This document shows, one piece after another, positions 1 through 55,108 of a stretch of DNA of 64,000 nucleotides (position 1 is the stretch's first letter; every line of letters begins with the position of its first letter). The position numbers and the translations under genes were made by a program. The notes beneath the pieces are model-generated. The model worked only from the letters and a program-made list of their open reading frames with translations, was not told where the DNA came from and ran no database searches. The DNA is taken from NCBI GenBank assembly GCA_030272155.1, contig CP126198.1, positions 434,001-498,000 on the forward strand, given 5' to 3'. Source of the stretch: Tetradesmus obliquus (Eukaryota; Chlorophyta; Chlorophyceae; Sphaeropleales; Scenedesmaceae).

Positions 1-59
1 TGCTACTTACAAATGGAGACGCAAAGCACACTCCAGCACAGCACTCTCAGCAACCCCCG

Positions 60-340
60 CACCTGAATGCTGCCCTGCAGCAGCATCACATGGCTCCCAG
101 CAGGTTCAAGTATCATCCAATTGTCCGCACATAATAATGACGCTTAGTATCAAAGTGCCCCCCCCCCCCCCCCCCCCGCACCTGTATGCTGCCCTGCAGC
201 AGCACCACGTGGCTCCCCAGCAGGGTCAAGTATCATCAGATTGTCCGCACATTTCAATCACGCTTACTCTCAACGTGCCCCCCCCTCCGCACCTGTATGC
301 TGCCCTGCAGCAGCATCACATGGCTCTCCTGCGCCACAGC
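60..340 (-). repeat. Exon-edge tandem array: donor side of exon 293-476, 3 copies
   Basis: The exon end encoding ESHVMLLQGSIQ plus its gtgcgg donor recurs near 58 and 178, at periods of about 120 and 111 bp, with the same intronic spacer. A run of about 17 C precedes the middle copy (161-178). The last copies lie against the window edge, so the array may be longer. Confidence 0.8.
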
Positions 341-3300
341 ACAGCCCGCAGGCAGCACCAGCAGCTCGCTCTTCACCAGCTGCTGCTTCAGGTGGCTCCG
401 CAGCGCAGCAAGGTGGCCCCGCACCCACGCCGCACGCTGCTGCCGGCTGGCACGTTTGTGGCGCGCACCGCCAGGCCTGCGGCAGGCAAAGAAAGGAACA
501 GACAACAGCAGACATGAGAATGCAAGACACATCGTACACGGCCGGCTTGTATGCAAGCTGCTGCCGGCTAGCGCGCTTGGGGCGCGCCGCGCCAGGCCTG
601 CGGCAGGCACAGGAAAAGGCAGCAAGGGCAGCAGGCATGAGCATGCAACAAGCACCCCACTCGCCCCACTTGTGGCGCGCGGCACCTTGCCTGCGGCAGG
701 CACGCACAGACATTGAGTGTAGCAGGCATGAGAACACCTGCCGTCGCTGCGTGCGTGCGGTGGTGCCTTGCTGGTTTCTGGCTGCTGTGCATAATGACAC
801 GTGTAACATGTTATTAACATAACCGACGCACCTGCCGTCGCCGCGCACATGCAGTGGTGCCAGGCGTGCCAGCGCCTGGCTGGTCCCTGGCTGCTGCAAA
901 GAACACGTGACGAAATGACAAAATGACAAACTGACGCACCTGCCGTCGCCGCGCACATGCAGTGGTGCCAGGCGTGCCAGTGCCTGGCTGGTCTCCAGCT
1001 CCACCTGCGGCTGCAGCCGCTCCAGCAGGAACAGGCCTGGCAGGTGGTGGCAGCAGCAGCAACAGCAGCAGCAGCATCAGTGTGGCATCTTGGTGAGAAG
1101 AAGTCAAAACATTTGCAAGCAGAGGATGCCATGAGACAGCTCCGCCTGTGGCTGCAGCCGCTCTAGCAGGAACAGGCCTGGGGGGTGGCAGCAGCAGCAG
1201 GGGCAGCAGCAGCAGCAGCAGCAGTGCAGTCCACATACAGGAGAGGGATTTAGAGCATGGGAGGACAGAAGATGACGCAGCAAGAGTTACACCTGCGGCT
1301 GCGGCCACTCCAGCAGGGCGAGTAGTGGATGTTGCCGGCTTGTCGTGACGGCGAGAAAGCAAGTAACAGGACGCATTTCTACTAGACTAGCTGTGACAGC
1401 ATGTCTTGAATGAGCATGCACAGGCTTTCTCACCTCCCAGGCGGTGCATGTCCAGCTCCAGCTGCTGGTAGCTGGCGTCACCGGCAGCAGCAGCAGCGGA
1501 CAGCTGGCGCAGGCCTTTGGCGCTGAAGCAGAACAGCACGGGGCCCTTGCCCAGCGCGTTGCCCTGCAGTGATAAACACAGCAGCAGCAGAAGCAGCAGC
1601 GCGAGGGCACATTCAGGCTGACGCAGAGATACACGGCAAGCGTGCCCAAGCCAAGCAGTAAGGCATTGCCACCACGGTGTACCTGTCCACGCAAAAGGTT
1701 TGCAGCATGAAGTCGCCTCACATCCGATGGTGTGATGCTAAACCGATGCAAACGGGACGGACTAATGAGTTACACACGTAAGCCGGCCCACCTGCGCCAC
1801 TGTGTCTGTCGTCCATGGCAGCTCTTCCCCTGTGAGCGCACTGTTGTACAGGTTGAACACGCTGCCCCATGATTCACAATGCATGCAATGCAAACGAACC
1901 GAACCCCAGCCCACCTGCGCCACAGCGTCTGTGGTCCCTGGTGAGTGCGCTGTACAGGTTCAACACGCCGCCGGCCCCAATGCACAATGCATTGCATGCA
2001 TTGCATGCATTGTGCATTCTGAACTAAATATTTAAACCCAGCACACCTGCGCCACCGCCCCATCTGTGGTGCCTGGCAGCTCTTCCCGCGGAGTGCGCTG
2101 TGCAGCTGACACACGCTGCCAGCCCAGAATTCACAATGCATGCGATGAGCTCTCCTAAAGCGCTGCCCACCTGTGCCACGGCTTCTGTCGTGCCTGGCAG
2201 CTCCCCTCCCCAGTGAGTGAGCTGTACAGGTTGAACACGCCACCAGCCCCATGACGCACAATGCATGCAAAGCAATTGTTTAGCATAAACAGACCCAGCG
2301 CACCTGCGCGACAGCATCTGTCGTCCCTGGCAGCTCCTCCCCCGTAAGTGCGCTGTACAGGTTGAACACGCCAGCCCATGATGCCCAATGCATGCAATGC
2401 AAACAGTGAAATGAACCACATACATAAACCCTGCCCACCTGTGCCACAGCATCTGTGGTCCCGGGCAGCTCTTCGCCAGTGAGTGCACTGTACAGGTTGA
2501 ACACACTAGCAGCCCTGTTCATGCAAAATGCATGCAATGCTAACAGTGAATGAATGTATGAACCCAGCGCACCTGCGCCACTGCGTCTGTCGTGCCAGGC
2601 AGCTCCTCCCCAGTGAGTGCGCTGTACAGGTTGAACACGCCGCCAGCGCCCAGGAAGTACTCCTGGTGAGAGCCCAGGTCAGGGGTGTAGCTGACCTGCA
2701 GCAGCAGCAGCAGCAGCAGCATGCGGTTGGTAAAGTGGCATGCCAGTTGCCACCCTGCTAGTCCTGTCAGCTGCCAGCGCACTGGCTGTCATGCGAGATG
2801 ATCTGGTACTGCAGTTGGTGCAGATGCGCCTGCACGCGATACCGCCTTTCACCAGCAGCTGAGGCACCCTGCACACTCCACCTGTTGGCTGCCAGGGTCC
2901 CTGTGTTGCAACAACCCCTGTTAGCAGCAAGCCAACCCTTGCCCTGCAAGCAAAACCCTGTCCTGCAAGCCAACCCCTGTCCTGCAAGCACCGCCTGTCC
3001 TGCAAGCACACGCTGTCCTGCAAGCGCCCCCTGTCCTGCAAGCGCGGGCCCACCTTGACAATGCCGCTCTGCACGATGTACAGCTGCTTGTCCTCCGGCA
3101 GCCTGCTGCCCTTGCCCAGCTGCAGCAGGTGGCCGTACCTGCGCAGCACAAACAGTGTGTATCCAGTGTTACTCCTAATGTTTCTGTGAAACGTTGTGCA
3201 GCATCAGCAGCTGGCCGCTGCCCTTGCCCAGCTGCAGCAGGTGGCCGTACCTGCGCAGCACAAACAGTGTGTATCCAGTGCTATTCCAAATGTTTCTTAA

Positions 3301-4910
3301 AAACGTTGTGCAGCATCAGCAGGTGGCCGCCGCCCTGCCCAGCTGCAGCAGGTGGCCGTACCTGCGCAGCACAAACAGTGTTTATCGAGTGTCATACCAA
3401 TTGTTTATAAAAAAACGTTGTCCAGCATTAGCAGGCAGCCTGCTGCCCTTGCCCAGCTGTAGCAGGTGGCCGTACCTGCACAGCACACATCACACGCAGC
3501 ACACACAGGATCAGCAACATTACGTAAAGCACCCAGCTGTTGTTATATGCTCACTGCCCTTACTGCCCAAACTCACTTGATGAAGAAGTCTATCACGCCC
3601 TGGCTCTGCCCGCGCATAAAAGGCAGCTGCCGCAGCACTTCTCCTAAGCTTGGGGCCTTCCAGCAAGGGCCTAGCAGCTCCAGGCGGCGCTCAGCTGCCT
3701 CAATGGGGTGCGCCAGCTGAGACTGCTCCGCTGAGTCGAGCATGCCGGACTCAAAGAGGCTCTGCAGCAGCAGCAGCAGCAGCAGCAGGCCACACCCGAG
3801 GTCCGAGCTGACCAGTTGACAGCACCGCCATGGCCACACCCACGACCTGCATGCACTGCACCTGCTTGGCAAACACCTGCGTGCATGCATACACGCACAC
3901 ACACCGCAGCCTGTGCACATGCACTGCTACAACGAAGCACCCAAGCAGCACACTATTACAAACAGCCGCTGCACTTGGTAGCGCGCTTGGTACGTCAGCA
4001 CAGCTGACCACAAGCAGCAACAGCATACAACCAGGGGTGGGGGGGGGCGGGCAATCAACAACTAGCAATGTAAGTCAGCTGCAGCCTAACTGCCACACAC
4101 TGACCGCCAAGAGAACACAAGTACTCGCAGCGGTGGCTCACCGCTGCCTAAGATTGCTGCCTATGGCAGCTGCACTGTTACCCCTCAAAACCCTGCCCCA
4201 GCAGGGTTGGTTCGCTCATGTTTCGCTATCGTGACAAGGTGCCTTTGTCTACAGGGTACTTAGGACAAAGGCATAAAGGCGCTGCTGGGGCAGCACAGCC
4301 ATCGCCACACCCCACAGCCTGCACACATGCCTACAGAGATGCACATGAAGCAGCGCACCTCCACGAATAGGCGCTGCTGGCACAGCACTGCCATGGCCAC
4401 GCGGTAGCTCTGCACCACAGCCTACATACACCACATCTGCAACTATGCAAACATGCAGCACCACCACGCACCTCCACAAACAGCCGCTGCTGCCGCAGCA
4501 CTGCCATGGCCACGCGGTAGCTCTGCACCGCGCTGTAGCGCTCGGGTGCCTCGATCTCCCTGTCCACCAGGAATCGCGCCACTGCTGCCGTCTCCACCTG
4601 GATCTCACTGATCAGCACAGCCCACACCTCACCCTCCTGCAGCGGCAGCGGCAGCAGCAGCAGTCACAGGGGTGGAACCCTAATCCCACGCAGTAGAGAG
4701 GACAACATAACAAATAATGGAAATCTTCGCAATGTGAGGGATGCCTGGCGCTGCCCAGCTGTCTCTGCCCTTTGCAGTGGCACTTTTGTAGTGTTGTTAT
4801 AACATATGTTATAACATGTCGCTGCCGCACCTGCAGCCACTCCACATAGGGGCTGGTGGTGAGGCCCATGAGGTACTCCATGGCCACCTCCACACTGGAC
4901 AGCAGCACCT

Positions 4911-5003
<93 letters not shown>

Positions 5004-8000
5004 CAACACACCAGCGCGGATGTTATTCAAGGAAGCTTCCGCCAGCGATATGGCACACTGCATTTGCCCCAACAGGAGGCTCACTCAAAGGCCGCAAGAT
5101 GGCCAGATGCGCGGCTTGCGCAGGTTCAAACTGGTGCTGCTATTCCTGAGACCAGCAGTAGCAGCCACAGCTAGCACTGCCCAGGACCTTTTCCAAAGGA
5201 GCACCTACTGCCCCTACGACAAAATAGACGCATACACACGCATGGCTGCTGCTGCAGCATGCACAGCAGCGCACACAGCAGCTACACCCCTTACTGACGC
5301 ATGCAAACATCTGATGCCGCACCTGGTTCAGCGGCCGCTGCAGCATGCGCGCCAGCACGCGCAGCGGGTAGGGCAATGCAGCAAAACCGACAGCGTGCCT
5401 GCTGACAGTGGTAACCCCAGCCAACCATACAACAAAACTACGTTGCCGCACCTGGTTCAGTGGCCGCTGCAGCATGCGCGCCAGCACGCGCAGCGGGTAG
5501 GACAGCCAGCGCCCCGCAGCGCCGATGGTGTGCAGGCCCACGGCGCCGCGCCGGCACGCGAAGAGGCACATCGTCAGCACGCGCAGCAGCAGGTTGTTGG
5601 CGGCGTCCCTGCCAGGCAGCAGCAGCGGGGGCAGCAGCAGCAGCAGCAGCATGGTCAGCACGCGCAGCAGCAGCGTGTTGGCGGCGTTCCTGAGCAGGCA
5701 GCAGCAACGCAGGAAGTGGCGGCGAGGGAGTGAGGCAGATCATCAGCAGGCAGATGTGGGATGATGTGCGTATGGTGTGCAGGCCCACGGAGTCACGCCG
5801 GCACGCAAAGAGGCACATGGTCAGCACACGCAGCAGCAGGTTAGTGGCGGCATCCCTGTCAGGCAGCAGCAGCAAAGAGAGGGAGGTAGTCAGCAGGCTG
5901 CTGTGTAGCCGATTCTGTGCGGATGCTGTGCAGTGCATAGGCTTCCTTGTTTGCTTTAGTGCATTGGATGCAGGCAGCGCATCCCGCCGATGATGCACAC
6001 ACAGAGCAACGTGAGGCGCGCTACCTGCCGTAGCTTTGAAGCCGTCTGGCAATGCAACCTCGCATACTTGAGCTGCCCCACAGCGGCAGCGGCTTGTCAG
6101 CATCACTCAGGCACTCGAAATGCACTCACCATCAGGAGGACACAACTACGGTCACACAAGCATACGCTACACACACATACATGCAGCCGCACCTGCTCAG
6201 GCTACCCCACAGCCGCAGCGGCCTTGTAGGGTCCTCCAGCGCCACCTCACAGGCTGAGTCCAGGATGCGCAGCCCGGCAGCGCTCAGCAGCCCATCCATG
6301 CGCTTGCCGTAGAAGTAGCGCTTGAGGCCTGCACAGGCAACACAAAGGGCAGGCAAATGCTACGTGTGCATGGTGTTGCAAGGCATGTGCTGGCTCAGCA
6401 GCCCATCCATGCGCTTGCCGTAAAAGTAGCGCTTGAGGCCTGCGGGGGGACGCACAATAAGTGAGTGTGCTTCGTTGGGTGATATGGCGGATCAAGCAGC
6501 GCATGGGGCGACAGCAGCGCACCCTGACAGCAAACAGCTGCGCGCACCAGCCAGCTGCTCCTCTCTCACACCACACACATGCTGCTGAGCAGCAGCAAAG
6601 CTGTTTGATAGTTGTGACAGTGCATTGGCTACGAATACAGTGAACACGTGCACGTACCTGACAGCAACCAGCTGCGCGCATCTGCCAGCTGCGCATCACC
6701 CACACCGCACGCATGGTGGTGTGCAGCACCAAGGCTGTGTAACAGCTGTTAAGGGGGAAGGATACAATAGAATTGGGTGTTTGGGCTGCGCTACCCAGGG
6801 GTGGGGTAGCCTGATTTTGCACTTTGTCTAAGTTGTTATAGCTAAGGAAGTTATTTCGGCCGTTTTGGAGGCCAGTACCGCACCCGCCTCGGCTACTGTA
6901 GTGCTTGGAGTCATCCTTGGACCCAGCAAGGAGGGTCCTGGGCGTAACAACAAGAGCGACCAAAGCAACACGGCCCAAACAGACTTGGTTGTTATCGAAT
7001 TATAAGCAGATTTTCGCCTTCCGGCCCGATTCCAAATTGCAAAAAGTGTGCACTCGTTGAGCACTCGTTTCTTGCTTCTGCTTGTGCTGCCGCGACTTTT
7101 GCAATTCACTTTTACGCCGCCTTCAGTCAAACGAAATATATAACCTTATATTTGAGTAAACCGGGAGATTGTGGCGTGGAAGACACTCTTTCAGCTGTGG
7201 CATCAGTCGTGATGCATCAGCGATTACTGTGCCCTGCCTGCACCGAAGGCGGGCGTTTCGATGTCATCAGGAGTTTGTAAGACAATCCATAGTATCAAAT
7301 AAAAGCTTTAGCGGCTTTAGATGGCTCCAGCGGAGGCCCTGGATGAAGTCTCACTGGTTGCTCCCTGGTCACACCCTGGTTGCCGCGTCAGGACCATAGG
7401 GACAGAGCTTCGCGAAAACGAGTCAGTAATGTTTTATTGTACAATGTGCTCCAGATCCGGTTTATGACGGCCTGAAGCCCCACAAAAGCTAATTGTATCC
7501 TTCCCCCTTAACAGTGCATTTGCCACCTATGAATTGTATGTGTACCCACCTGACAGCAGCCAGCTGCGAGCATCAGCCAGCTCCTCCTCACTCACGCTAC
7601 ACCAATGTTGATGTACAGCAACAAGGCTGTTTGAACGTTTCGGCAGTAAAGGCCAACACACTGTTGTAACGCACCTGACAGCAGCCAGCTGCGAGCATCA
7701 GCCAGCTCCTCCTCACTCACGCCTCCCACCCCCTGCACGCTGCCCGTGCCATAGCTGCTGTTCTTGCCAAGCCCGTGTGAGGCCTTATACATGCTGCTCG
7801 CTGCATCATCCCAGTCGCTGCTGTCCCCCTCAGGCCCCCCTGCCCTACTGGATCCGGCTCTTGCAGCAGCACCCGGCAATCCCATTGATGCACTTATCCG
7901 GCTGACGCGGCCTAACGCCTTGCTGAACACATCCAGCACGCTGCCTGGCTCCGCGCCGCCGCTCCTGATCTCGTTGCTGACGTTAGTAACATCGTTACTT

Positions 8001-11000
8001 TGGCCGGCGGCCGCCAAATCCGCGGCGCTCGGCAGCAGCCGGCCGCGCGCCGCAGCCTGCTGCTGCTGCTGCACCGGCACGGATCTGCACGCAAGGCTGC
8101 GCGCAACACCCTGCTGCTGTTGCTGCTGCTGCCGCCTGCTGCTGCCGGCGCTGTCCGCAGCCACGACGGCTGCTGCTGTTGCCATTGCCGCAGACACCCC
8201 TGGCTTGTATCCACCCAGGCCTGTGGACACCTTATACAGGCTCGACTGCATGGGAGCAACAGGAGGTATGTGTGGGTTGTTGCTGCGCGTGGCAAGGCTG
8301 CTGCTGCTGCTGCCACCAGGCCCTCCAGCCGACCTGCCGCTGCCACCTGCTGCTGCTCCTAAGCTGCTGTAAGCACCTGCAGCATACAGAGCAGCCAACA
8401 GTGCAATGCACCCCGTGCATTGACATTGATTTGACACAAGCAGGTACAAACTGCTGCACATGCTGCGCTGCTGCTGCAAGCACATCATGCAGAACAGCCA
8501 CCCCGTATCAAAATTACAGCCAGCAACAAAACGGAATGCAAACAGCTGCAGCCCTGCCTCACCTGCCATGCCCACACTCCTGCTGGCCAAGCTCCTGCCA
8601 CGACCAACCATCATCAAGATTACAGCCAGCAACGCAACGAAATGCAAACAGCTGCAGCTCAGCCTCACCTGCCATGCCCACACTCCTGCTGGCTAAGCTG
8701 CGCCCGCTGCTAGGCCTACCCAAGCCCCCTGCAGCACCAACAACACCAATGCCGCCGCTGCTGCTGCCGCTATTATTGTGATCTGCCGGCCCTGAAAAGC
8801 TTCCCGATCTCCTGTGGCCGCTGCTGCGTGCAAGAGCCACCATGTCAACAGCAGCAGCAGCAGCATCATACTCCAACTGACACCTGGGTCCTGGGCCGCA
8901 CGGCAATACTGCTTCTTGGCCCTCCGGCACATGCAAACCCTCAAAACTGAACCCTGGTGCTGCTGCTGCGGGTGGACCGGCACTATTTAAGCCGGCAGTC
9001 TGGCGGTCAACGCTGCTGCTGCCGCCGCCGCCATACATGGCCATGTTGACCGAGCGAGTAGCAAGGCCTCTGTAAGCGCCAGAAGGCCGGCCAAGTGCCT
9101 TTTCCATCGGCGTCTGCCCAGTAGCAGCAGCAGCAGCAGCAGCAGGCGGCCTCCCTGCATTCGGCGCTGCTGCTGCTACAGCCCCAAGAGCAGCAGCTCG
9201 AGGAGAGCCAGGGTCTGCATCAGCAGCGGCAGCAGCAGCAGCAGTGCCGCCGCCGCTGTTGCCAGAAGGGAGGCTCCAGCCTGGCGCCGCACCTGCTGCA
9301 TCTGCCTTGCTGCTGCTGCTGCTGCCGCCGTAAGCAATGCCAGAATCATCTCTGCCGCCGTGCGGACTAAACATTCCGCTGCTGCCGAGGGAGCTTTTGT
9401 AGCTGCTGCGCGTTGCTGCAGCGTCTGCAGTGCTGCCGCTGTCTCTATCCCCGAAGCTACCAGCATATGCCAGCGCTGGTGCTGCACTGCGTGTGGCCAA
9501 GCTCCTCAATGCATTGCCGGCACTCTTTGCCTTTGCTGCTGCTGCTGCTGTGGGTGAGCCGCTGCCAAGCTGCCCTACCGTGTCACCAGCAGCAGCGCCA
9601 GCACGGGACGCTGCTGCTGCCACAAACGCGCTCGGCAGCTTTGCAATGCCGCTGCCGCTGCCACTGTTTGGCCTGCCTGGCACCCGCAGCGGCGGCAAGC
9701 CGCCAGACACGCCTGCATTAGGCCCTGCAGGCAGCATCGGTTCATCTGCTGGCCCTGTAACAGCTGGCTGCTGCTTCTGAGGCAGCGGCTGCAGCTGCAC
9801 CTCATCTGCAGCAGCAGCATCGCCAGAGTCTGATGGCAGGGATGATTTGCGCAAGCGGCTGGGCCAAAACTTGCGCAGCAGCATTGAAGGGGACTTGAAG
9901 AGGCCTGGGCTGCTGCTGCCGCCCGCAGCAGCAGCAGCAGCAGGGTCAGCAGCAGCGCCGTTCCCTGCTGCTGCTGCTGCTGCTCCTGATGCACTGCTGT
10001 GGCTGCCGATACGGCTGGGCCCTGGGTTGAAATCCATGAAAGGGCACTCCATTGCATCTATATCGCCTGAGTCAGCAAAGCCGCTGAAAGCAGGCATCAT
10101 GTTCACAAGCAAGCCCTCTCCTGCCTCACTGCCAGAGCCGTCACTGTCGCTGCCGCTGCTGCTGCCGGCGCGGCTGCCGCTGCTGCTGCCAACACTGCTA
10201 TCCTCCTCATCTGATACAGCTCCATCTTGCTGCTGCTGCCGCTGCCGCCGCATCGCCCGCTTGCCGCTCCTAGTGCGTCTGGCGCCGCTCCTTTGCCGCT
10301 GCAATCCATCTGCTGCACTGGCGCCATTTGCTGTCGCATCCATTCCATTTGCATCCGCTGCTGCTGCTGCTGCTGCTGCTGCTATCCCTGCCTCCACATC
10401 TTCTGGTGCATTCATGGAGTGCAGCGTCTTGAGTGACCTACTGCCTGACCCCATGCCACCATCATCACCCTTGCTGTGTCTACTGTGCCGGCTGTGGTGC
10501 GAGCGGCCACCAGCGTCGTTCTGCTGCCCCTGCTGCTGCTGCTGCTTATCCAGCTGCGCCTGGCTGCCAACGCGGCAGCAGCAGCAGGCCCAGAGGCGCA
10601 GCAGCAGCTTGGAAAGCTTGCCGCGCTTGGTGGGGGTTGGCTGCCCGGTAAAGGCCCCATACTTGCGGCCATGGTCCACAAAGGATGCCACCTGGCCCCA
10701 GTCCACGCCTGCAGCAGGATACAGACATTTGCGGGCCAGCAATTTGATTTGAAAATCACTGAGACGTACATTCACTGTTGATATTCAGCAGATGCCGGGT
10801 CCGCTGCTCAAACGTTGTGTCCCGTTGAAGGTGACCAGGCCGCTGCGCAGCCGACAGCTGCGAACTTGCAGCTCATCCCCTGCATGCCTTAGCTGGCAAA
10901 GCCCCGATTTGGAGTCCACCCAACATTACTGTTGACGGATCGGCCATGCAAAATGCTACATGCGAAACTACGGCAACTCATTGTCACTTCTCACCTGCCA

Positions 11001-14000
11001 GCAGCTCATCCTCCGCATCGCGCAGCTGGTCCAGCACCTCTTGCTAAACACTACACTGATTCAAAAAGTGCCCACTGTCTATGCCCACCGCGCATAACAG
11101 CCATTGATTGAACTGTTAAGCATGCTCCCACCTGCCAGCAGCTGATCCTCTGCGTCCCTGAGCTGGTCCAGCACCTCTGCTGTGTGCGCGCCCAGCCCAC
11201 CAACTGATAAACCACATGCAAACACGAGCCGATCTGCTCTCACCCGCCAGCAGCTCGTCCTCTGCATCCCGTAGCTGGTCAAGTACCTCCGCTGTGTGTG
11301 CGCCCAGCGCAGCCACGGCACGCTGCCGCCGCGCCAGCTGCTTGGCAGGCACCTGCAGCACACCAAAACATCGTGTTAATACATCAACACCAACAGAAAC
11401 ACGCGAGCCTTAGCAGCCCGGCGCCGCCACGGCACGCTGCCTCCGTGCCAGCTGCTTGGCAGGCACCTGCACCACACCAACATCAGCAGAAAGCATACAT
11501 GCCTCAGCAGATGGGCCACGATGGCAACGTTGCTGTGGCTCAAATGGCAACAGTATGATGACCCCTCAGCAGACCCAGCGCCGCGCGGCATGCTGCCTCC
11601 GAGCCAGCTGCTTCGCAGGCACCTGCAGCATATCAACATGAACAGCACATTAACAACAACAGCACATCAACATTGACGGGTAACATGTATGCCTCAGCAG
11701 ATCCAGCGGCCGCACCGGACGCTGCTTGGCAGGCACCTGCCGGGCGCAAGACAGGTTGAATACATTGAAGCAGCTCACACAACATTTTGATCGGAGTGCT
11801 CAGGATACTTACATGCTTACCTGCCATATGCAAACTCTCTGTCAAACACACGTTTGCAATGGCCTGGCACAGCAGCGGCTGATGCTGGACAGCTTGCCAG
11901 CTGCATGCATTGTGCTCGTACGCAGTAAACTGGTAGCGATCGAGCTCCCGTCACCATGTGCCTGACAGGTTTTTATTTTGGTGAGGTGCACACACGCTGC
12001 TTCTTCTGCAAGCCTGAGACAAAGTGCAGCTGCTGCCTCAGCGGCCGTCACACAACTAGCCGTATGTATACATCAATGGGTTACGTGCATGCCTCAGCCG
12101 GCCTGCCCCTGCAACACCCCGCACCTTGGACAGCCCCGTGAGGCGCAGCACCAGCGGCAGCATTGGCGCGTTGATCATCAGTGTCAGCAGCACAAAGCCG
12201 GCAGTCCAGAACACCATCATGGCCTTGACCACCTGCAGCAGCAGCAGCAGCAGCAGCAGAAGCAGAAGCCCGTGAGACAGCGCATGGCATTCACACAACG
12301 TGGGATGCGGCTGGTTGTGCATTGGGTCTGCTCATTGCCAATGCTGATATCTTCCGAAAGACAGCACACATAGTGTTGACACATAGCATACATCAATGCG
12401 CAAATCAAAACCCTCAACAAGGGTCACATCTTGGCAGCCGGGACTCACGTTGCTGGTGTTGCTGGTGCGTGCATCTAAGCAGTGTGCTGTGCAGAAAATA
12501 GCGCACCAGCCCTCCAGCCATTCCAAATACAAACACTGACACAAAGCAGTGCAGCCGGAACTCACGTTGAAGGTGTTGCTGGTGCCGCGCAACTGAGCAT
12601 GTCGGTATGCAGATGACGGCAAACCCATCATCCCATACACAATGACAAACGCCACACAGCTCTGAAGCGGAAGTCACGTTGAAGGTGGTGCTGGTGCCGT
12701 GCACCTGAGCAGGGTGCTGTGCACATGTTACAGCATGAAAGCCCTCCCAGACGCAAACAACAACACACAAACAGCGACACACAGCTTTGCTGCGCGCTCA
12801 CGTTGAAGGTGTTGCTGGTGCCGTGCATCTGGTAGGTCACCACCGCACTGGCAACAAACAACCAGGCAACCCCCGCCCCCCCCCCCCCCCCACAAGATTT
12901 CGTGCTGCTGCTGCTCAAAGACAGACACAGCAACAGGCAGGTGACACTAGTGCACTTGCTGGTTTAGCCCACACCACAGATCTGCGGCGAGGACTCACGT
13001 TGAAGGTGTTGCTGGTGCCGTGCATCTGGTAGGTCACCACCGCACTGCCCATGATCAAACTGGCGGAGCCCCTCAGCCCCGCAGCACACACAAAGATGCA
13101 CTCCCGGAAGCTCATATCTCCCTTGATGGCAATAAACAGCGGCCGGAAGGCCATTGTCAGGCCGAAGCGCATCAGTGTCAGGATGATGTAGATGACCGGC
13201 ATCATCCACAGGGTGAAGGCGAGGTCACGCGTGCCGTCAGGGCCCTTCACTAGCTCCATGGAGGCACTGCGACAGCGGCAGCAGCAGCAGCAGCACCAGC
13301 AGCTCGCACATGGCAGAGGCGACGCAGTAATTGCGACTGCAGAAATGCCGTAATGGCATGTATGGGTATGCCGCCACAGATTATTGCAGGAAAGACAGAA
13401 GTTTGGGTCGGTACACCTGCAGCAGCTGACAGATGCGGCGGTTAAACTTCGGTCAAACTCACCGCACGAAGAAGTTGACCACGCTGGCGCCCGAGTACAG
13501 GAAGACCAGGCTGTTGACCACAAAAGCCAGTGTCTCCCAGAATCCATCAAAGGTCTCATGAGCATGTGTGGACATGTCCCACCAGTTGGTGGCAGCACCA
13601 TACAGACCCATCACTGCAACAGCCACAACACCTGGCAGCAGCAGCAGCAGCAGTGGCAGCAGCGGCAGCCTTTGTCAGTTGCTGGACATGTCCCACCAGT
13701 TGGCGGCAGCACCATACAGGCCCATCACCGCGACAGCATAACACCTGGCAGCAGCAGCGGCAGCAGCAGCAGCAGCAGCGGCAGCAGCATGGTCAGTTCT
13801 TGAGCATGCGTGGACATGTCCCACCAGTTGGTGGCAGCACCATACAGACCCATCACTGCAACAGCCACAACACCTGGCAGCAGCAGCAGCAGCAGCGGCA
13901 GCAGCGGCAGCCTTGTCAGTTGTTGGACATGTCCCACCAGTTGGCGGCAGCACCATACAGGCCCATCACCGCGACAGCCATAACACCTGGCAGCAGCAGC

Positions 14001-14744
14001 GGCAGCAGCAGCAGCAGCAGCAGCAGCGGCAGCAGCATGGTCAGTTCTTGAGCATGCGTGGACATGTCCCACCAGTTGGTGGCAGCACCATACAGACCCA
14101 TCACTGCAACAGCCACGCCACCTGACAGCAGCAGCAGCAGCAGCAGCAGTAGCGGCAGCAGCATGGTCAGTTCTTGAGCATGTGTCGACATGTCCCACCA
14201 GTTGGCGGCAGCACCATACAGGCCCATCACGGCAACAGCCACGACACCTGGCAGCAGCAGCAGCAGCAGCGGCGGCAGCAGCAGCAGCATGGTCAGTTCT
14301 TGAGCATGCGTGGACATGTCCCACCAGTTGGTGGCAGCACCATACAGGCCCATCACGGCAACAGACACGACACCTGACAGCAGCAGCAGCAGCAGCAGTA
14401 GCGGCAGCAGCATGGTCAGTTCTTGAGCATGTGTGGACATGTCCCACCAGTTGGTGGCAGCACCATACAGGCCCATCACGGCAACAGCCACGACACCTGA
14501 CAGCAGCAGCAGCAGCGGCGGCAGCAGCAGCAGCATGGTCAGTTCTTGAGCATGCGTGGACATGTCCCACCAGTTGGTGGCAGCATCATACAGGCCCATC
14601 ACGGCAACAGCCACGACACCTGACAGCAGCAGCAGCAGCAGCAGCAGTAGCGGCAGCAGCATGGTCAGTTCTTGAGCATGTGTCGACATGTCCCACCAGT
14701 TGGCGGCAGCACCATACAGGCCCATCACCGCGACAGCCACGACA

Positions 14745-14775
<31 letters not shown>

Positions 14776-16462
14776 TGGTCAGTGCTTGAGCATGCGTGGA
14801 CATGTCCCACCAGTTGGTGGCAGCACCGTACAGGCTCATCACGGCAACAGCCACAACACCTGACAGCAGCAGCAGCAGCAGCAGCAGCAGCATGGTCAGT
14901 GCTTGAGCATGCGTGGACATGTCCCACCAGCTGGTGGCAGCGCCATACAGGACCATCACCGCAACAGCCACGACACCTGGCAGCAGCAGCAGCAGCATCG
15001 TGTACAATCATGAGCATGTCACGCCCGTCCTTGTATCAAATTAAAACTGTAGCTGCACTGCACATGCCGTGACGCTGTCTGTCAGGTGAGCTGCGCACAC
15101 GTTAGTAGGAAGTTTACAAACCCACTGACCATACGGCAATTGACCTTTTGATAGCCTGTGATAGCCTTTTGTTAGCCTGCAGACCCCTGCAGACCCCTAG
15201 CTGCAGCCAACCTCCAGCAGGGTGCTCCAGTACCCGTGTACAGAATGGCATGTCTGCTGTACGACATCCAGCTCTAATTGCAACTGCCGTTTTGCGAAGT
15301 CTAATTGGCAGCCAAAATCGCCACTACTAGCGTGCTTGGTGTCGCAACGCTGTGCCGTCGCGAGCTCAAGCACGCTTACAGTGGGGACTTCAACTCTTGT
15401 CTTATCAACTGCTGTTCAGACCATGAATCAGTCACTGGTCCACATTGCGTTCAACCCATATCCAGTGCTCAAACACTGGTCTAACCCCAGCAGCAGGGCA
15501 TCCTGCTCACTGTAGCCCGTGCTGCCAACTTCTGGTCAAATGCTGGTCAAACGCTGGTCAAACGCTGGTCAAACCTGCTCACCTGAGCCCTTGCAGGGGA
15601 TGGCGGTGATCCAGTAGGCCAGGTATGCCATGCCCAGTGTGAGGGCCACCTCCTGGTCGTGGCCCGCGCCCATGTAGCGCATGAAGCGCAGGAACAGCCG
15701 CGTGAGCATGCCAAACACCATGCCCATCACAAAACCGACTGCGGCAGCATTTGAAGATGAAGCACAAAGGTGAGAATGAGCCGCAGCAGCAGCAGCAGCA
15801 GCAGCAGCACCGTGAGCATGCCAAACACCATGCCCATCACAAAGCCGACTGCGGTGAGCAAGAATGCAGAAAGAGGCAGAACCAGGCTGAGTGTCAAGGC
15901 TGGGGCCAAGAGCAACATGCCGGCAGCATGATGAGCATGCCAAACACCATGCGCATCACAAAGCCGACTGCGGTGAGCAAGAATGCAGAAAGAGGCAGAA
16001 CCAGGCTGAGTGTCAAGGCTGGGGCCAAGAGCAACATGCCGGCAGCGTGAGCATGCCAAACACCATGCGCATCACAAAGCCGACTGCAGTAACAGGCAGG
16101 GTTGCAGCAGCAGTAGCAGCAGCAGCAGCCGCGTGCGCATGCCAAACACCATGCACATCACAAAGCCGACTGTGGTGAGCAATTATGCAGAATGCGGCAG
16201 AGAGAGCGCTAGGTGTCAAGGCTGGGGCCAAAAGCAACATGCCGGCAGCGTGAGGATGCCACAATCATGCCCACCACCAAGCTGACTGTGGTGAGCAAGC
16301 AAGGTTGCAGCGGCACGCGGGATGTGGGACACCCACCCGGCGATTAGAAACAGTGGTTGGCTGAGAGCTGAGTGAGAGCATGCAAGGCAGGGCCAACTCC
16401 AAGGCCAAAAGATTGATGAAGGCAGCGGCCAGCAAGCAACACATGTAACAGGCATTCAACAG

Positions 16463-16497
<35 letters not shown>

Positions 16498-16588
16498 CCA
16501 GCAGCAGCAGCAGCACCACACTCATGCCCAGCTGGAAGACCGCCAGGAACACATGCAACACAGGCAACATGCATTCTGTTCACACATT

Positions 16589-16632
<44 letters not shown>

Positions 16633-17241
16633 CCACTCACTCATGCCCAGCTGGAAGACGGCCAGGAACACATGGCCCACTATGGTGCCGATGGGCTCGC
16701 TGTCTTCGGGGTGCTCCATCTGCACTTGCAGCTGCAGCCGCAGCCGCAGCAGCAGCAGCAGCAGCAGCAGCACAGCAACAGACACATGCTGTATGTTGAC
16801 GGTTTCGCAGAAGCAGCGTGGGGTGAACATCCACAGTAGTTGACCAACCCCTGCTGCTGCTGCCGCTGCTACGGTCAAGCTGACAGGCTGAATGCCCATG
16901 CATGTTGTGCACAATACAGCCAGACTGCAGGACAGTCTGGCAGCCGGCATATGCAGTGCAGATGACCAAGACTTGGCTCATTCTGCTCTGAGCATATCAC
17001 TTACAGAACATGACACAGATGAAGCACGCAACAGTGTTAGCCCTGTACTGATGGCGCTCCTGATCAGGACCAGGTGCATTCTCACATAAAAAAAACCCTC
17101 AGATCATGCTGTTGACAGAGCATGCAGTGCAAACAATGTGCCGCGTCCGCTGCTGCTGTTCTTCCTTCCTCACCAGGTGGAAGAAGACCTCGGTCTTTAC
17201 ACATCACAGATTACCATATCACACAGAGCATGCAACATGAG

Positions 17242-17280
<39 letters not shown>

Positions 17281-17365
17281 ATTTTCCGTTCTTCCTGCCT
17301 CACCAGGTGGAAGAAGACTTCAAACAGCTGTCCATCAACATATCACACAGAGCATGCAACATGAG

Positions 17366-17422
<57 letters not shown>

Positions 17423-19766
17423 ATTTTCCGTTCTTCCTGCCTCACCAGGTGGAAGAAGACTTCAAACAGCTGTCCATCAACATATCACACAGAGCATGCA
17501 ACATGAGCCTTGTTGCTGCTGCTGCTGCTGCTGCTGCATTTTCTGTCCTGCCTGTCTCACCAGGTGGAAGAAGACCTCGAACAGCGTCAGCCCGCTTGCG
17601 TCGTTCAGCAGCGACTCGCCCTCCAGCATCACACGCATGCGCTTGGGGCCGCCGCCTGCAGAAAGACAGCCAACGACAACAGCCAAAGAAACAGTCAGCA
17701 AGGCGGTCAGATGGTGCTTGATGCATGCCTATGCACCCTCCAGCATCACGCGCATGCGCTTGGGGTCGCCGCCTGCGGAGACAGCCCACAATACCAGGCA
17801 AAGAAACAGTCAGCAAGGCAGGCGGCTGATGCTTGATGCATGCGCATGCACCCTCCAGCATCACACGCATGCGCTTGGGGCCGCAGCCTGCAGCGATCAA
17901 AACAACGACAGCAGACATGTGAAGCAGGCAGATGAAGCGTGATGCATGCGCAGGTGCCCTGCAGCTGCTTAGGGCCGCCGCCTGCAGAGAGACAGCCCAC
18001 AATACCAGCCAAAGGCGCAGTCAGTAAGGCAGGTGATGACTGATGCATGCCCATGCACCCTCCAGCATCACACGCAGCCGCTTGGGGCCGCCGCCTGCTG
18101 TTGGCTGCATGCGTTGACTCCTTACAACTATGGTCCACGGCGCACGACAGCCTGCCACAAACTTGAAGAAGGTGGACGGCCCACACGCTGCTCTGGGCAT
18201 ACTATACTAAGAGTCTAAATCAAACAGAAGCAGTGGCACTCACTGGTCTTCATGATTGACACGATGGCCACTGCATCTGTTGACGCGATCATGGCGCCAA
18301 ACATGCACGCGTGGATCCAGTTCCAGCCAAACTGCTGCAGCTGCAGCATATGCAGCATGATGGGGATCATCAGCGCACACGTGGCGCCCACCACCACAAA
18401 CGCCAGCGTGAACACCTGGATGAAGCTCTGCGGGTGTGAAGTTCACGGCGGGAAGTTCGCGGCAGGCAGGTCGAGCAGGTGTGAAGTTGGTCAGCGCAAA
18501 CTGCACGGAAGGTGCACAGCTGAAGCGTCAAGCATTGTTTGCGCAGGGTGTGTCACAGAACACACAACATACCACACACACGCTGCTGCTGCGGCTGCTG
18601 CTGCTGCTGTTGCTGCAGGGACTCGTCGTGCTGCTCTCCTACCTGACCCAACAATGGCACCTGTCTACCACAGTCAACACTCCTGCTACCCCATCCACCT
18701 ACCTTCCTGAACATGAACCAACAGCTACCTGTCACCCACGACTTCCGATAGTTCACTGCAAACAGCCATCACTTCCCGCGCGCGCACCTTCCTGAACATG
18801 AACCAGTCGATGCGCACCGCCGCGTCCAGCAGCAGCGGCGGCAGGAACACAAAGAAGAACAGCTGCCAGGGAGAGATGCCCAGCCAGATGGCCAGGCTGT
18901 TGCCAAGCGCACCCAGGTTCACAGGAAAAGCCACGGCCATCAGCACAGCACCTGGCAGCAGCAGCAGCACAGCGTGCAGACAGATTCAGTGCAAGCGAGA
19001 TGCCCAGCCAGATGGCCAAGCTGTTGCCCAGCGCCCCAAGGTTCACGGGAAAAGCCACGGCCATCAGCACAGCACCTGGCAGCAGCAGCAGCAGCAGCAG
19101 GTGCTGAAGGTTTGTTGACACGCTTTCAGTGCCAGTTGCTGCCACAGCTGCACCAGCCCTAGCGTGGCATGCTGCCAGCAGCTGCCCCACCACTACCCAA
19201 AGCAACTGGTGCCGACGCTGCCGCCAGCAACATGGTTTTGCCAACTGTGTCCCACCTCCACTGCTTGTTATGTCGATGTTGCTGCTGCTGCTGCCTGGCT
19301 GCCTACACCTCAGTCAAAGCTACCCCAAGCTACCGCAAACTGCTGGTGCCGCCCCCGCACCTGCCACCAGAACCATGAGCATGTTGAGCTTGCCCTGCAG
19401 CACGCCACAACTACAGTGCATGGCACAACTGCTGCTGCTGCTGCTGCTGTTGCGGCTGCTGCTGCTGCTGCTGCTGCCCCCGCACCTGCCACCAGCACCA
19501 TGAGTGTGTTGAGCTTGCCCTGCAGCAGGCAGGCCAGCACCACCGCCAGCCCACCAAACAGCACCACGTCGTACGAGGAGTTGGGCACGATGCAGAAGTT
19601 GTATGAGTCTGCAGCAGCAGCAGCAGCAGCAGCGGCAGCAGCAGCAGGGTTGTAAGAGCACAGGGCAGTGCTGCTGTGTGATTGGCTTTGGAGGGTCTGT
19701 GGTGCGACAGCACCCCTTGGGCCCCTCCTATGCCTATCTTCTGCTGCGTTCGTTAACTTGTAGCCA

Positions 19767-20783: not shown

Positions 20784-22361
20784 ATGCTCAAGCACCAGCA
20801 ACAGTGCAAGAGACAGCAGGAGGATGTGTACAGCCTGTTGGTGCAGGTGGAGAAGCTGCAGGTTGCCCTGCGACACGTAACTGCTGAAAGGTAAGTTCAA
20901 GGAGACAACTGCACATGCAGCTACCCTGTGGATCTGCCTCACTAGGCAGACGATACTGACACCAGCTGTTCGTGATGTCGCCTGCCAGGGATGCACTAGC
21001 TGCTCAGCTGCTGGACAGCAGCGAAACACAGCAGGAGTGCCTGCAGGCGCTGCTGGACGGAAGGGAGCAGCTGCTGCACTTCCAGGTGAAACACCTATCA
21101 TGCATTAGATACCTCAAACAGAATCCTGCAAGCATGGCTTGTGTTGGACATGTCTCGCAGCAGTCCATGGTGCTGGCACCAAATGCCGACGCATCTGAAC
21201 TGCAAATGACTGGTCAGCAACTGCATACTGTGGCAGTCAGCCAGGAGGCAATCAAACATGCATCACATGCATTTCTGAATGCAAGTTCAATCCTAGCATG
21301 GTGAAGAACCACTGACAGCTGGCCTGCACATGTTCCCCTTGTTTGTTGCGCATCTGCAGACTGATTTGCTACTTGTGCGGGACAACAATGAACAGCTGCT
21401 GCACGACAACAAGCGGTGAGCATGAAAGCAAGGCAGTCAAGAACAATGGCAGTGTATCACCATGCAAGTGACTGCAGCAGGCTAGCAGCATTGTAGTGCC
21501 GCTGGCTGCCGACAGTTGACATGCTCGGGTCCATGCTGCTGCTGGTCTGTGTTTCTGCCTTCTGGTCATGCGCCAATTGCTCTGCTGCAGGCTGCAGGAA
21601 CATGTGAAGCAGCTGCAGCAGCAGCTGGAGCAGTCAGAGAGTGCACAACGGCAGCTGGAGCAGCAGCAGCTGCAGTGGTCCCGGCAAGGTGCAGCACTTG
21701 GCTTATTGCCTGCTGGCCTGCAGCTGCTGGCGCCGCCTTCCCTGCTTGACTCTAGCAGCGTTAGTGATGCAGATGGCAGCAGTAGCAGGGCAGACACGCC
21801 CAGTACCAATGCCAGCTGGGAGCCAGCGATTACACAACAGCAAGACCAACAACACAAGCCCCCGTTATTGCGCAAGCTGCAGCAGCAGCTGCAGGAGCTG
21901 CACCTGCAGCAGCAGCAGCTACCTCTCAGTGGCCCGGGGCATGCAGTGCAAGACAAGCAGCCACTAGCACAGCAGCCTCCCGCACTGCCCTCGCAACAGC
22001 AGCAGCCAGCACATGCAACAGCAGGTAGCCCTGAAATAACGGCTGGTACGCAGCAATGCAACCTGCAGGCGCCAACAGCAGCAGCAGCAGGAGCTGGCAT
22101 GAGCATGCAACTCGCTGCATCTTCTGCGGACACTCAGCAAGCTGCATCAACAGCAGCAGCAGCAGCAGCAGCAGTAACTCCGTCTCCTGGTGGATGTGTG
22201 GTGTGCCTGACACAGCAAGACTTGGACTACATCTTGCTTGAGGTGCAGCAGCTGCAGCAGCGCCTGGCGGCTGTGGCTGCCGCCAGCCTGGGTGCAATGC
22301 CACAGCAGCAGCAGCAGCAGCATGCGCCCACAACTGGCATGCAACACTGGCAAGGTCCACC

Positions 22362-22397
<36 letters not shown>

Positions 22398-41717: not shown

Positions 41718-41751
<34 letters not shown>

Positions 41752-44700
41752 ATGTGCTGCGCAGGTGTACTCCGATTTTGACGGCTTCCGGCTGCACGAT
41801 GTGGTGGAGGTGCTGGGCGTGATGAGCGTGGTGCCGGGCCTGGCAGCGCTGCTGCAGCAGCAGCAGGGCGGTGATGTGGCAGGTGCAGCAGCAGCAGCAG
41901 CAGCAGGCGGTGTGGCTGCGGGTGGCGACGGCATGGATGTGGATGATGGGGGCTTCTGGGAGCAGGATGTGGCTGCACTGCCACCAACAAGCCAGGTTAG
42001 GTGGTAGCGTGGTAGCGTGCCTTGTTTTGAGGCTGTTTTGGGACTGTTTTTGTGATGGAATCAGCTGAGGGCTACTTCTGAGCAGCTCCTTGCTGTGTGT
42101 GTCATCTAGCAATATAACCACGGCAGTGGCAATGAGTATGCTGCCCTAATGTATGTTGCCGGTTGTGCTGCAGGTGACGCGCCTGCACGCACTGGCCATC
42201 CGCAAGCTACCACCCCTGACCACCACCAGCAGCAGCAGCAGCACCGCTGCTGCAGCAGATCTGCAGCAGCAGCAGCAGCCGGCCGCGCTGCCCAGGTCCC
42301 TGCCTGGTCACCTGGCGGGCCATCTGCCGCTGCTGCGTCAGCGTGCATTGGCACTGCTGGCTGCGCCGCTGGCTGGTGACATGCTGGCGGCTGAGTACCT
42401 ACTGCTGGCTGCACTGGGCTCGGTGAGTGCTCAGCAGTGCTGTTTCTTGCTTCTTGTGTATTTGAAACACAAGCTGCAATTACTGCAACATCTAGAACAG
42501 GGTATGCTATGCACCAGACATACTTACATGACTGGTGTGGGCGGCTGTCTCCTTATGGCCATGGACAGTCAGTTTGTTGCTTATGCCTGTTGTCACAGCC
42601 TCTGTTGAGCAATTGGCACCTGAGCACTTTTGTATATTGGCCGCGCAGGCGGTGTAGCGGCTTGAGTGTAACAGTGCAATCCCTCTTCTTTTGCGCAGGT
42701 GACGAACCGCGGGGAGGCTGGCGAGGCGATGGGGCTGCTGCCCCTCATGCATGTCATATAACACGAATCACTCATTTTAAATTGAATCTGTCTGCACCGC
42801 AGGTGATGAACCGCGGGGAGGCGGGCGAGGCGATGGGGCTGCTGCCCCTCATGCATATCATATAATACGAATCACTCATTATGAATTGAATCTGTCTGCG
42901 CCGCAGGTGATGAACCGCGGGGAGGCGGGCGAGGCGATGGGCCTGCTGCAGCTCAACCTCACCCACGTGCCCAGCAGTGGGGCCGGCAGCAAAGGTGCGT
43001 GCGCTGCAGCAGCACGATGGAGTAAACGCTCTGTGTACATGCAATTCTCATGCTATCTTGGATGATGGGGAATGCTAACGCAGCGCGCTGACGCAAGGCA
43101 ATTCAAGAGGTCGAGTACGCCGCAGAACCTTGTGCGAGAGTCTGCATGGTTGGCACGACCGTTGATACACTTCGAAGCACCATCCACGTTGACGACATGC
43201 GCATCACACTGCTGCTGCTGCTGCTTCTGCTGGTGCTGCTGCTGCTGCTGCTGTCATGTGTTGCTGTGTGCAGCGCCTGGTCTGGTGCCTGGGCTGGCTG
43301 CTGCGCTGCGCAGCCTGCTGCCGCATGTGGCCCTGATGCCTCTGGACGTGCTGGCCCTCAACAACAAGTAGGCACCAAGAGTTGGACTTGATCCTATGAT
43401 AGCGCTTGCAACGCCGGACACATGACAGAACTGTACTTGACACACGCATTGTGACCGTTGTGCATGCTGACTGCTGGCGTCGCTGACAGTGCATGCTACT
43501 GTGGCGGTAAATCCCTCAGACCAGCAGTCAGCTGGCTTTTGCAATGCAATGTTGGTTAGAGCAGGCGCAACCTTTCCCTGTTGTCGGTCAGGAGTGCTTT
43601 GTGGCTGACTGTCCTATGCCCTGCAGCCCTGCATATAATTCTCCTCCTGCATCTGCCATCCCTGCTGCTGCTGCCGTCGTGCAGGCGCTGGTACCCGCAG
43701 CAGCACGCAGCCTCAGGCCGTCTGTTCCGCGGCTGCCTGCAGCTGACGGCCGGCACGCTGCTGCTGCTGGATGAGACGGCGCTGGGCCCTGGCCAGCTGG
43801 GCGATGCAGGCGTGAAGAACCTGCAGGTGGGTGGCAGCAGGGGCTGTGAAGAGGGAGTTTGCACTTTGCAAGGATACACAAGATGAAACTGGGCATCGAA
43901 ATGGGCGTCGATATTACTCATCCAACTAGGATAATGAAAGGGTGGTGTGTTCAGGTCCTGTGGGGTGTGCCAGTGTACGAGTGTGTCCTGCTGCTGTTGT
44001 CCTGCTGCTGCTTGATGAGACAGCGCTGGGCCCTGGGCAGCTGGGCGGTGCAGGCGTAAAGAACTTGCAGGTGGGCTGGTGCAGGGTTGCTGCACACATA
44101 TTTTCTTAAAGAGCAACAGCATGCTGAAGGTGGCATCCTTACATGGGTGTTCAGATTGGAGTGCGGCCACAAGGCGGTTGCAGTTGAAACCATGTGCCGC
44201 CCTCACACCATCACAGCCCTCTGCGCTGCTAGGCAAGGCTGCCGGCGCTCACAATCGGCGGACGTGCTTCTGCTGCGTGTCCTGCAGGCGCTGCGGCAGG
44301 TGCTGACGCAGCAGCAGCTGCCCTGCGGCTGCCAGGTGTACACACACAACCTCAGCGTGAACCAGCCGGCAGTCGTGCTCAGCAGCACCCGCAGCGTGCT
44401 GCGTGACAGCCTTGCGCTGTCGCTGCCGCTGCAGCCGCAGCGCCCGGTGCTGGTCAAACCCGGTCAAACCGGTCAAACTGGTCAAACCGGCAGCTTTGAC
44501 CAAGCCGGCGCGCCTGCAGCAGTAGTGGACTGGGCGGCAGCAGATGTGGCTGGCCCGGAGGCTGTTGCAGCAGCAGCGGCAGCAATGCCTGAGCTTGCGG
44601 CTGTGAGGGAGTATCTTGCTGCTGCTCGTGGCCTGGAGTGCCGGATGGATCAGGCGGCGGCTGAGGCGTGCGTGACGCGGTTTAGGGCCATGCAGCAGGC

Positions 44701-46456: not shown

Positions 46457-53701
<7,245 letters not shown>

Positions 53702-54480: not shown

Positions 54481-55108
<628 letters not shown>

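Follow-up and report, generated by a model that had tools for sequence, protein, structure and literature searches.

Tandem copies of exon edges, splice sites included, lie in the introns of a Na+/H+ exchanger gene and of other genes of Tetradesmus obliquus

We analyzed a 64-kb stretch of contig C8 of the Tetradesmus obliquus genome (104.66 Mb in 17 contigs), hereafter the window, which carries a gene for a Na+/H+ exchanger (gene 1) near one end. At 22 of the 43 splice edges of gene 1, the end of the exon is repeated together with its splice site, in tandem, in the adjoining intron. Both types of edge are affected (12 of 22 donors and 10 of 21 acceptors), and five exons, E4, E10, E16, E23 and E24, have copies on both sides. 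These counts bear out an earlier reading made from the sequence alone (the sequence-only reading), which had described about twenty arrays hitting donors and acceptors, often independently on the two sides of one exon. We propose that the arrays probably reflect recurrent tandem duplications of about 120 bp, of which those that cross an exon edge are tolerated, leaving copies that are functionless and decaying.

The exon map of gene 1 was built by hand and comprises 22 exons with 43 splice edges; all joints are GT–AG. The splice consensus of the genome reads AG/GTG[AC]G for donors and TGCAG/G for acceptors (the slash marks the joint). The joined reading frame is stop-free and matches the PF00999 profile at 2.1e-37, and its PDB relatives are sperm NHE and SOS1. 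A protein from a relative, P0001, is 92% identical to the exchanger; its source name, GHRQ01023626.1.p1, is in the style of open reading frames from transcript assemblies. Alignment to P0001 and the gene finder described below both place the start of E5 four codons earlier, at 16731, than the position used in the copy counts (16719). Self-comparison by BLAST, with pairs accepted at E ≤ 1e-3, yields 23 clusters at 54-19530: 22 tandem clusters and one (9950-10576) with copies 558 bp apart. Copies were tabulated from an alignment that excludes the self diagonal, replacing an earlier table affected by self-matches, and a low-complexity match of 33 bp at the E17 acceptor was left out of the array count. 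The larger arrays are also picked up by Tandem Repeats Finder (for example 13559-14997, 11.8 copies of 126 bp), a tandem structure that would suit a minisatellite if copy number varied in the population. The distance from the real to the nearest copied splice site is 106–134 bp in 19 of the 22 arrays, and 81, 141 and 197 bp in the remainder (Table 1). In the E7 acceptor array the best matches between copies alternate, which suggests that arrays can also grow by dimers.

The pattern, first described for one gene, is not confined to it. The window has more clusters at 22821-63426, and when 20 unselected 10-kb stretches of the genome were compared with themselves, 17 proved to contain at least one cluster, one of the 17 being a 312-bp satellite (L003). 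In these stretches the smallest offset per cluster is 80–149 bp in 36 of 62 clusters, a total that includes four from the satellite; the cluster count per 10 kb has a mean of 3.35 and a variance of 12.5. Genes differ greatly, with five of eight kinesin loci free of clusters and one carrying six. Exon edges outside gene 1 were predicted by a home-made hidden Markov model trained on gene 1 and Pfam-matched segments. On gene 1 itself this gene finder recovers 16 of 22 exons exactly and 21 and 18 of 22 edges, predicts 43 exons, some of which are copies, and leads to the E21 donor array being mislabelled as acceptor in the cluster classification; such errors blur every genome-scale count given here. 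Classified in this way, clusters outside gene 1 comprise 76 edge, 9 intron-only, 17 mixed, 12 exon and 6 intergenic cases. Overlap of L028 with L032 and of L039 with L040 means that one edge place and one mixed place are counted twice, so that units spanning an existing splice site are found in the 22 arrays of gene 1 and at 75 distinct predicted edges elsewhere. The 18 mixed clusters (17 outside gene 1) were excluded from the comparison of edge with intron-only arrays. With gene 1 included by its predicted edges, the set holds 96 edge clusters, 49 at donors and 47 at acceptors. An independent sign of the same pattern comes from a Pfam kinesin search, in which one exon matches profile positions 263-326 and three partial matches (262-289, 262-289 and 260-289) lie upstream, at C2:7430899, 7431175 and 7431313.

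Over the 96 edges the duplicated unit has a median exon part of 45–53 bp and takes in about 70 bp of intron, much the same for donors and acceptors, and median unit lengths by class are 113–126 bp. The earlier figure of 20–60 copied exon bases does not cover the 24 of 96 edges where the exon part exceeds 60 bp. The lengths of exon part and spacer are anticorrelated (rho -0.53), and unit length has a variance (455) smaller than the summed variances of the two parts (323 and 650), which indicates duplication of whole units whose length varied little. The units of intron-only arrays are similar in size (70–110 bp in 7 of 9), and the intron halves of copy and original are alike above shuffled sequences (z ≥ 2) in 66 of 81 pairs. 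The position of the intact exon, always at one end of the array as had been noted, is a geometric necessity and nothing special, because any tandem duplication that crosses an edge leaves it there.

Two other origins were considered and rejected. Introner elements are dispersed related elements that create introns, and they are known for bulk growth of intron sequence in algae. The arrays share with introners the growth of introns; related sequences at unlinked introns were not seen among 25 spacers (24 distinct) compared with about 350 kb of genome, where the spacers form no family, and an origin from mobile elements is rejected on this basis for the sequence compared. The matches found were of 24–39 bp to other loci for three spacers, one match within a spacer's own locus, and one place that had been fetched twice. 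Copying of exon ends from an mRNA template, an idea prompted by pairs in which only the exon part is alike, is at odds with the intron similarity retained in the 66 pairs.

In the explanation that we favor, small tandem duplications with a unit of about 120 bp recur in the genome, and those within coding exons would mostly be purged by selection. A duplication that crosses an edge would leave one intact exon and place a copy of the exon end and splice site in the intron; the message would be unchanged provided that the exon-proximal site is used, that is, that the pair enclosing the shortest exon wins. The copies, being functionless, would lengthen the intron, multiply by unequal exchange and decay, perhaps with occasional overwriting of a copy by the exon through gene conversion. 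They would be visible mainly at exon edges, where one copy is held constant by selection, homology on the intron side being lost sooner. Work in other organisms suggests how the duplications may arise, by repair of staggered breaks or of nearby opposite nicks: small tandem duplications form in mouse and human cells at staggered breaks with overhangs of about 43–50 bp, through fill-in by Pol alpha-primase/CST (PMC8355091). These are likewise short and direct, and the passages cited do not tie them to splice sites.

Use of the exon-proximal site is supported by P0001, in which no additional residues occur at the seven joints from E3/E4 to E9/E10; among these are the joints of E7, with 11 acceptor copies, and E8, with four donor copies. 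The PDB relatives of the exchanger also span the joints without long inserts. Because P0001 comes from a relative and not from this strain, we can only infer that the copied sites are skipped; if this is true, the shortest-exon-enclosing pair wins at both ends of an exon.

The splice dinucleotide is retained in most nearest copies (GT in 34 of 38 on the donor side and AG in 34 of 37 on the acceptor side), and 26 of 27 gaps in their exon parts are not multiples of three, frameshifts that count against coding use. In 41 pairs anchored by intron sequence, exon parts show 7.7 and intron parts 15.1 substitutions per 100 sites (bootstrap ratio 0.39–0.66); for gaps per 100 sites the values are 1.10 and 2.60 (ratio 0.16–0.83). 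If only the real exon were constrained, ratios of about 0.67 for substitutions and 0.5 for gaps would be expected; these copies thus decay nearly at the neutral expectation. A forced global alignment had pointed to strong constraint on the copies, with exon versus intron gaps per 100 sites of 0.58 versus 9.34 outside gene 1 and 0 versus 6.33 in gene 1. These counts were not relied on, as the intron halves include doubtful homologies and the exon extents were chosen by the alignment, and most of the signal is gone in the stricter intron-anchored count. The claim that tandem duplication has acted repeatedly on existing introns and lengthened them is supported, with donor and acceptor clusters in similar number and most copied dinucleotides kept. 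A new mechanism does not seem to be needed: unit length, not the length of copied exon, is near constant, as in plain tandem duplication, and the intron-anchored pairs are near-neutral.

The sequence-only reading had further tied the repeats to exon edges. In the random stretches, points spanned by a copy are 16 of 207 donors and 14 of 215 acceptors, compared with 8 of 515 mid-intron and 9 of 267 mid-exon points; at ABC and kinesin loci they are 14 of 105 donors, 13 of 105 acceptors, 5 of 170 mid-intron and 3 of 144 mid-exon points. Coverage is highest in the last 40–60 bp of the exon, dips 20–80 bp into the intron and rises beyond about 100 bp, a profile shared by gene 1, the remainder of the window, the family loci and random-stretch donors. 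It is faint in random-stretch acceptors, where coverage is 0.08–0.15 at 100–140 bp inside exons against 0.09 at the edge; exon-internal repeats account for this unclean profile. Much of the coverage peak at edges is persistence. When detectability is controlled by an intron-anchored count, for which exons and exon-like copies were masked so that arrays were detectable from intron sequence only, edge-type and intron-only arrays number 15 and 9 outside gene 1, 7 and 0 in gene 1, and 6 and 5 in the random stretches; two other classifications put one of these last six edge-type arrays (L010 5517) among the intron-only ones. Random placement of 120-bp windows predicts 13,368 edge to 25,005 intron-only (about 1 to 1.9). 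With detectability controlled, a preference of the duplications for edges over intron interiors is only weakly supported.

Several observations weigh against the explanation proposed here. (i) Past E10, P0001 has 10 residues unlike E11, so that the E10/E11 joint is not confirmed, and the relative's gene may itself lack the arrays. (ii) Intron likeness is lacking (z < 2) in 15 of 81 pairs, or in 20 of 74 by another criterion, and exon parts 96–100% alike stand next to unrelated intron in E12, E14, the E16 donor and L004. (iii) Differences between copy and exon are in excess at third codon positions. Over positions 1/2/3 they number 11/12/48 in 19 gene 1 pairs and 52/57/142 in 56 pairs elsewhere, and the ratio of position 3 to positions 1/2 is 4.11 (2.49–7.64) and 2.63 (2.08–3.50), respectively; by our reasoning, the neutral maximum is 2. 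Events over all gene 1 copies are 28/21/84. (iv) Edges are not always the most covered points: in the window outside gene 1, 9 of 107 edges and 18 of 130 mid-intron points are covered, and in gene 1 the covered points are 21 of 52 among predicted edges and 20 of 80 in mid-intron; long introns there largely consist of copies. (v) A modest edge excess over random placement remains, in small numbers that hinge on predicted genes.

Points (ii) and (iii) bear on the alternative that we regard as the least unlikely, namely that the copies are old and are maintained by conversion from the exon or by selection, their intron parts having drifted and their exon parts having been refreshed or constrained. 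Pairs without intron likeness would result from exon-to-copy conversion acting on old duplications, and the third-position excess is strongest among the least diverged pairs, with differences of 0/0/4 (11 pairs), 16/9/49 (29), 24/35/81 (24) and 23/25/56 (11) in order of rising divergence. Conversion alone, however, cannot by this reasoning lift the ratio above 2, the frameshifts oppose coding use, and the intron-anchored pairs are consistent with neutral decay. A third-position excess could stem from allelic variation that was present when a copy was made.

We also consider it unlikely that duplication is aimed at splice sites, so that splicing, transcription (through R-loops) or a nucleosome positioned on the exon exposes a fixed window, about -48 to +70, to breakage and copying. 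The exon part does peak at 40–50 bp (25 of 96), with donor and acceptor medians alike, and departs from uniformity among 45 exons of 150 bp or more (Kolmogorov–Smirnov p = 6e-6); the edges exceed mid-intron points 4–5 fold in the random stretches (30/422 vs 8/515) and the family loci (27/210 vs 5/170), and the intron-anchored count still stands at 15 to 9. A similar peak would, by our reasoning, follow from the detection floor for the exon part combined with the approximately 45 bp of native intron needed beside the real site. Moreover, the 19 young whole-unit arrays comprise 12 edge arrays with exon parts of 17–78, 4 intron-only, 1 intergenic and 2 unlabelled, the random stretches alone give 6 to 5 with one of the six doubtful, and the window outside gene 1 has no edge excess. 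More doubtful still is a stronger form, in which splicing marks the DNA and, at thousands of joints, a splice-site-centred window of approximately 120 bp is copied into the intron over and over, with conversion from the exon keeping the copies exon-like; if true, introns would expand from their splice sites and the genome would be a fossil record of past exon ends.

It is very improbable that the copies are used, be it as alternative ends, as micro-exons as in potato (see below), or as recursive splice points through which the intron would be removed about 120 nt at a time. Of 75 nearest pairs, 68 retain the copied dinucleotide (the two without alignment were scored as lost); at this divergence, we reason, an unconstrained dinucleotide would survive in some 85–90% anyway, and pairs were detected by alignments crossing it. 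AG/GT, as a ratchet point requires, is present at the copied joint in 12 of 22 arrays and absent at 10. By eye, the inner end of one printed copy (L015 3797) carries a consensus acceptor, and in about four others a bare AG or GT occurs within 3 nt of that end; among 14 readable pairs, again judged by eye, this copy is the only one with a consensus partner site, such as a mutually exclusive exon, bearing both acceptor and donor, would need. Frameshifts in the copies and the seven P0001 joints without extra residues speak against use. Assembly error is extremely unlikely, as the copies mostly differ among themselves and, in gene 1, from the real edge, and so are not one sequence assembled twice, and arrays lie on many contigs.

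The closest known case is the RdRp (RNA-dependent RNA polymerase) gene of potato, in which a tandem duplication reaches from the 3' end of one intron into the exon that follows and the copied splice signals stem from the parent joint; there the message keeps the duplicated piece of exon and the gene gains an intron (PMC4974935). The event is of the same kind, occurring once and with an apparently different outcome, whereas here the copies are apparently skipped inside one longer intron, donors and acceptors are both affected, many genes are involved and there are often several copies. What is new relative to potato is thus the scale, the two edge types, the repeated action and the apparent outcome of longer introns with the message unchanged. 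In the AGGT model of intron gain (Hellsten 2011, as summarized in PMC4974935), duplication of AGGT-bearing exon sequence makes a new intron; a small tandem duplication supplies extra splice sites in both cases, and here existing introns grow. The segments differ from an exonic segment with internal AGGT, as each unit contains about 70 bp of intron and 10 of 22 joints lack AG/GT. We found no genome-scale report of boundary-crossing copies in the literature searched, to which subscription papers were mostly external.

The arrays show that introns can lengthen through unselected duplication, and they constitute a natural experiment on splice-site choice, with near-identical donors or acceptors in series within introns. 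Reed and Maniatis reportedly used, in 1986, substrates with tandemly duplicated splice sites, a laboratory version of competing identical sites. Those substrates were engineered, and here there are many natural counterparts. If the exon-proximal site is used throughout, pairing would be across the exon, and simple intron definition predicts that the outermost copies win; for Volvox and Chlamydomonas, intron definition has been inferred from the shortness of their introns (PMC4378016).

Table 1. Position of gene 1 and of edge arrays in the window
Feature	Position	Strand	Details
Na+/H+ exchanger gene (gene 1), mapped part	293..19576	-	22 exons, Pfam PF00999
E24 donor array	54..332	-	real donor 293/292; copies at 111, 230 bp
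E24 acceptor array	432..648	-	copy at 121 bp
E23 donor array	765..993	-	copy at 108 bp
E23 acceptor array	996..1218	-	copy at 141 bp
E21 donor array	1780..2655	-	six copies, 134-781 bp from real donor
E20 acceptor array	3097..3487	-	whole-unit 112-bp copies, 90% alike
E18 donor array	4277..4529	-	copy at 113 bp
E16 donor copy	5315..5504	-	at 129 bp; exon part 51/53 alike, intron part only 8 bp
E16 acceptor array	5525..5873	-	copies at 81, 247 bp
E14 acceptor copy	6282..6443	-	at 111 bp; exon part 46/47 alike, intron part only 4 bp
Two farther E12 donor copies	6523..6749	-	1017 and about 1150 bp from real donor
E12 donor copy	7544..7722	-	at 125 bp; exon part 48/48 alike, intron part only 6 bp
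E11 donor array	8507..8699	-	copy at 106 bp
E10 donor array	10989..11199	-	copies at 112, 249 bp
E10 acceptor array	11302..11645	-	copies at 114, 270 bp
E8 donor array	12434..13047	-	copies at 197, 321, 433, 550 bp
E7 acceptor array	13556..14997	-	11 copies beside real acceptor; largest array
E6 acceptor array	15688..16315	-	copies at 110, 345 bp (229, 547 in earlier table)
E5 donor array	16433..16771	-	copy at 119 bp
E4 donor array	17158..17585	-	copies at 115, 257, 387 bp
E4 acceptor array	17619..18098	-	copies at 117, 326 bp (232, 439 in earlier table)
E2 acceptor array	18873..19098	-	copy at 124 bp
E1 donor array	19340..19530	-	copy at 125 bp
Edge array in another gene	42694..42955	+	predicted acceptor; 104-bp unit, 94% alike
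Edge array in GH38 (alpha-mannosidase-type) gene	47800..48158	+	predicted donor; 146-bp unit
Edge array in HI0933-type flavoprotein gene	62702..63426	-	predicted acceptor; 115-bp unit

At 41430-41864, 47800-48158 and 62702-63426 the gene finder read copies as exons, which gives repeated peptides. Gene predictors can thus take edge copies for exons, as our home-made one did, and similar false exons may be present in automatic annotations of this genome. In gene 1, a stretch of 769 bp at 6746-7514 is bounded by perfect inverted repeats of 23 nt and is likely a non-autonomous DNA transposon; it sits in the E12–E14 intron, between the nearest and the farther E12 donor copies. Elsewhere in the window, repeats of 63 bp at 22303-22523 lie within an open glutamine-rich frame (21520-23619, plus strand) and are probably an exon-internal tandem repeat, and a perfect (ATG)n run of 170 bp at 54939-55108 is read by the gene finder as minus-strand poly-isoleucine at a predicted gene end. 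The satellite array L003 (G000:C1:4500001-4510000) has no predicted exon, a lowered GC content (0.493) and 312-bp tandem repeats up to 100% alike, and is possibly centromeric.

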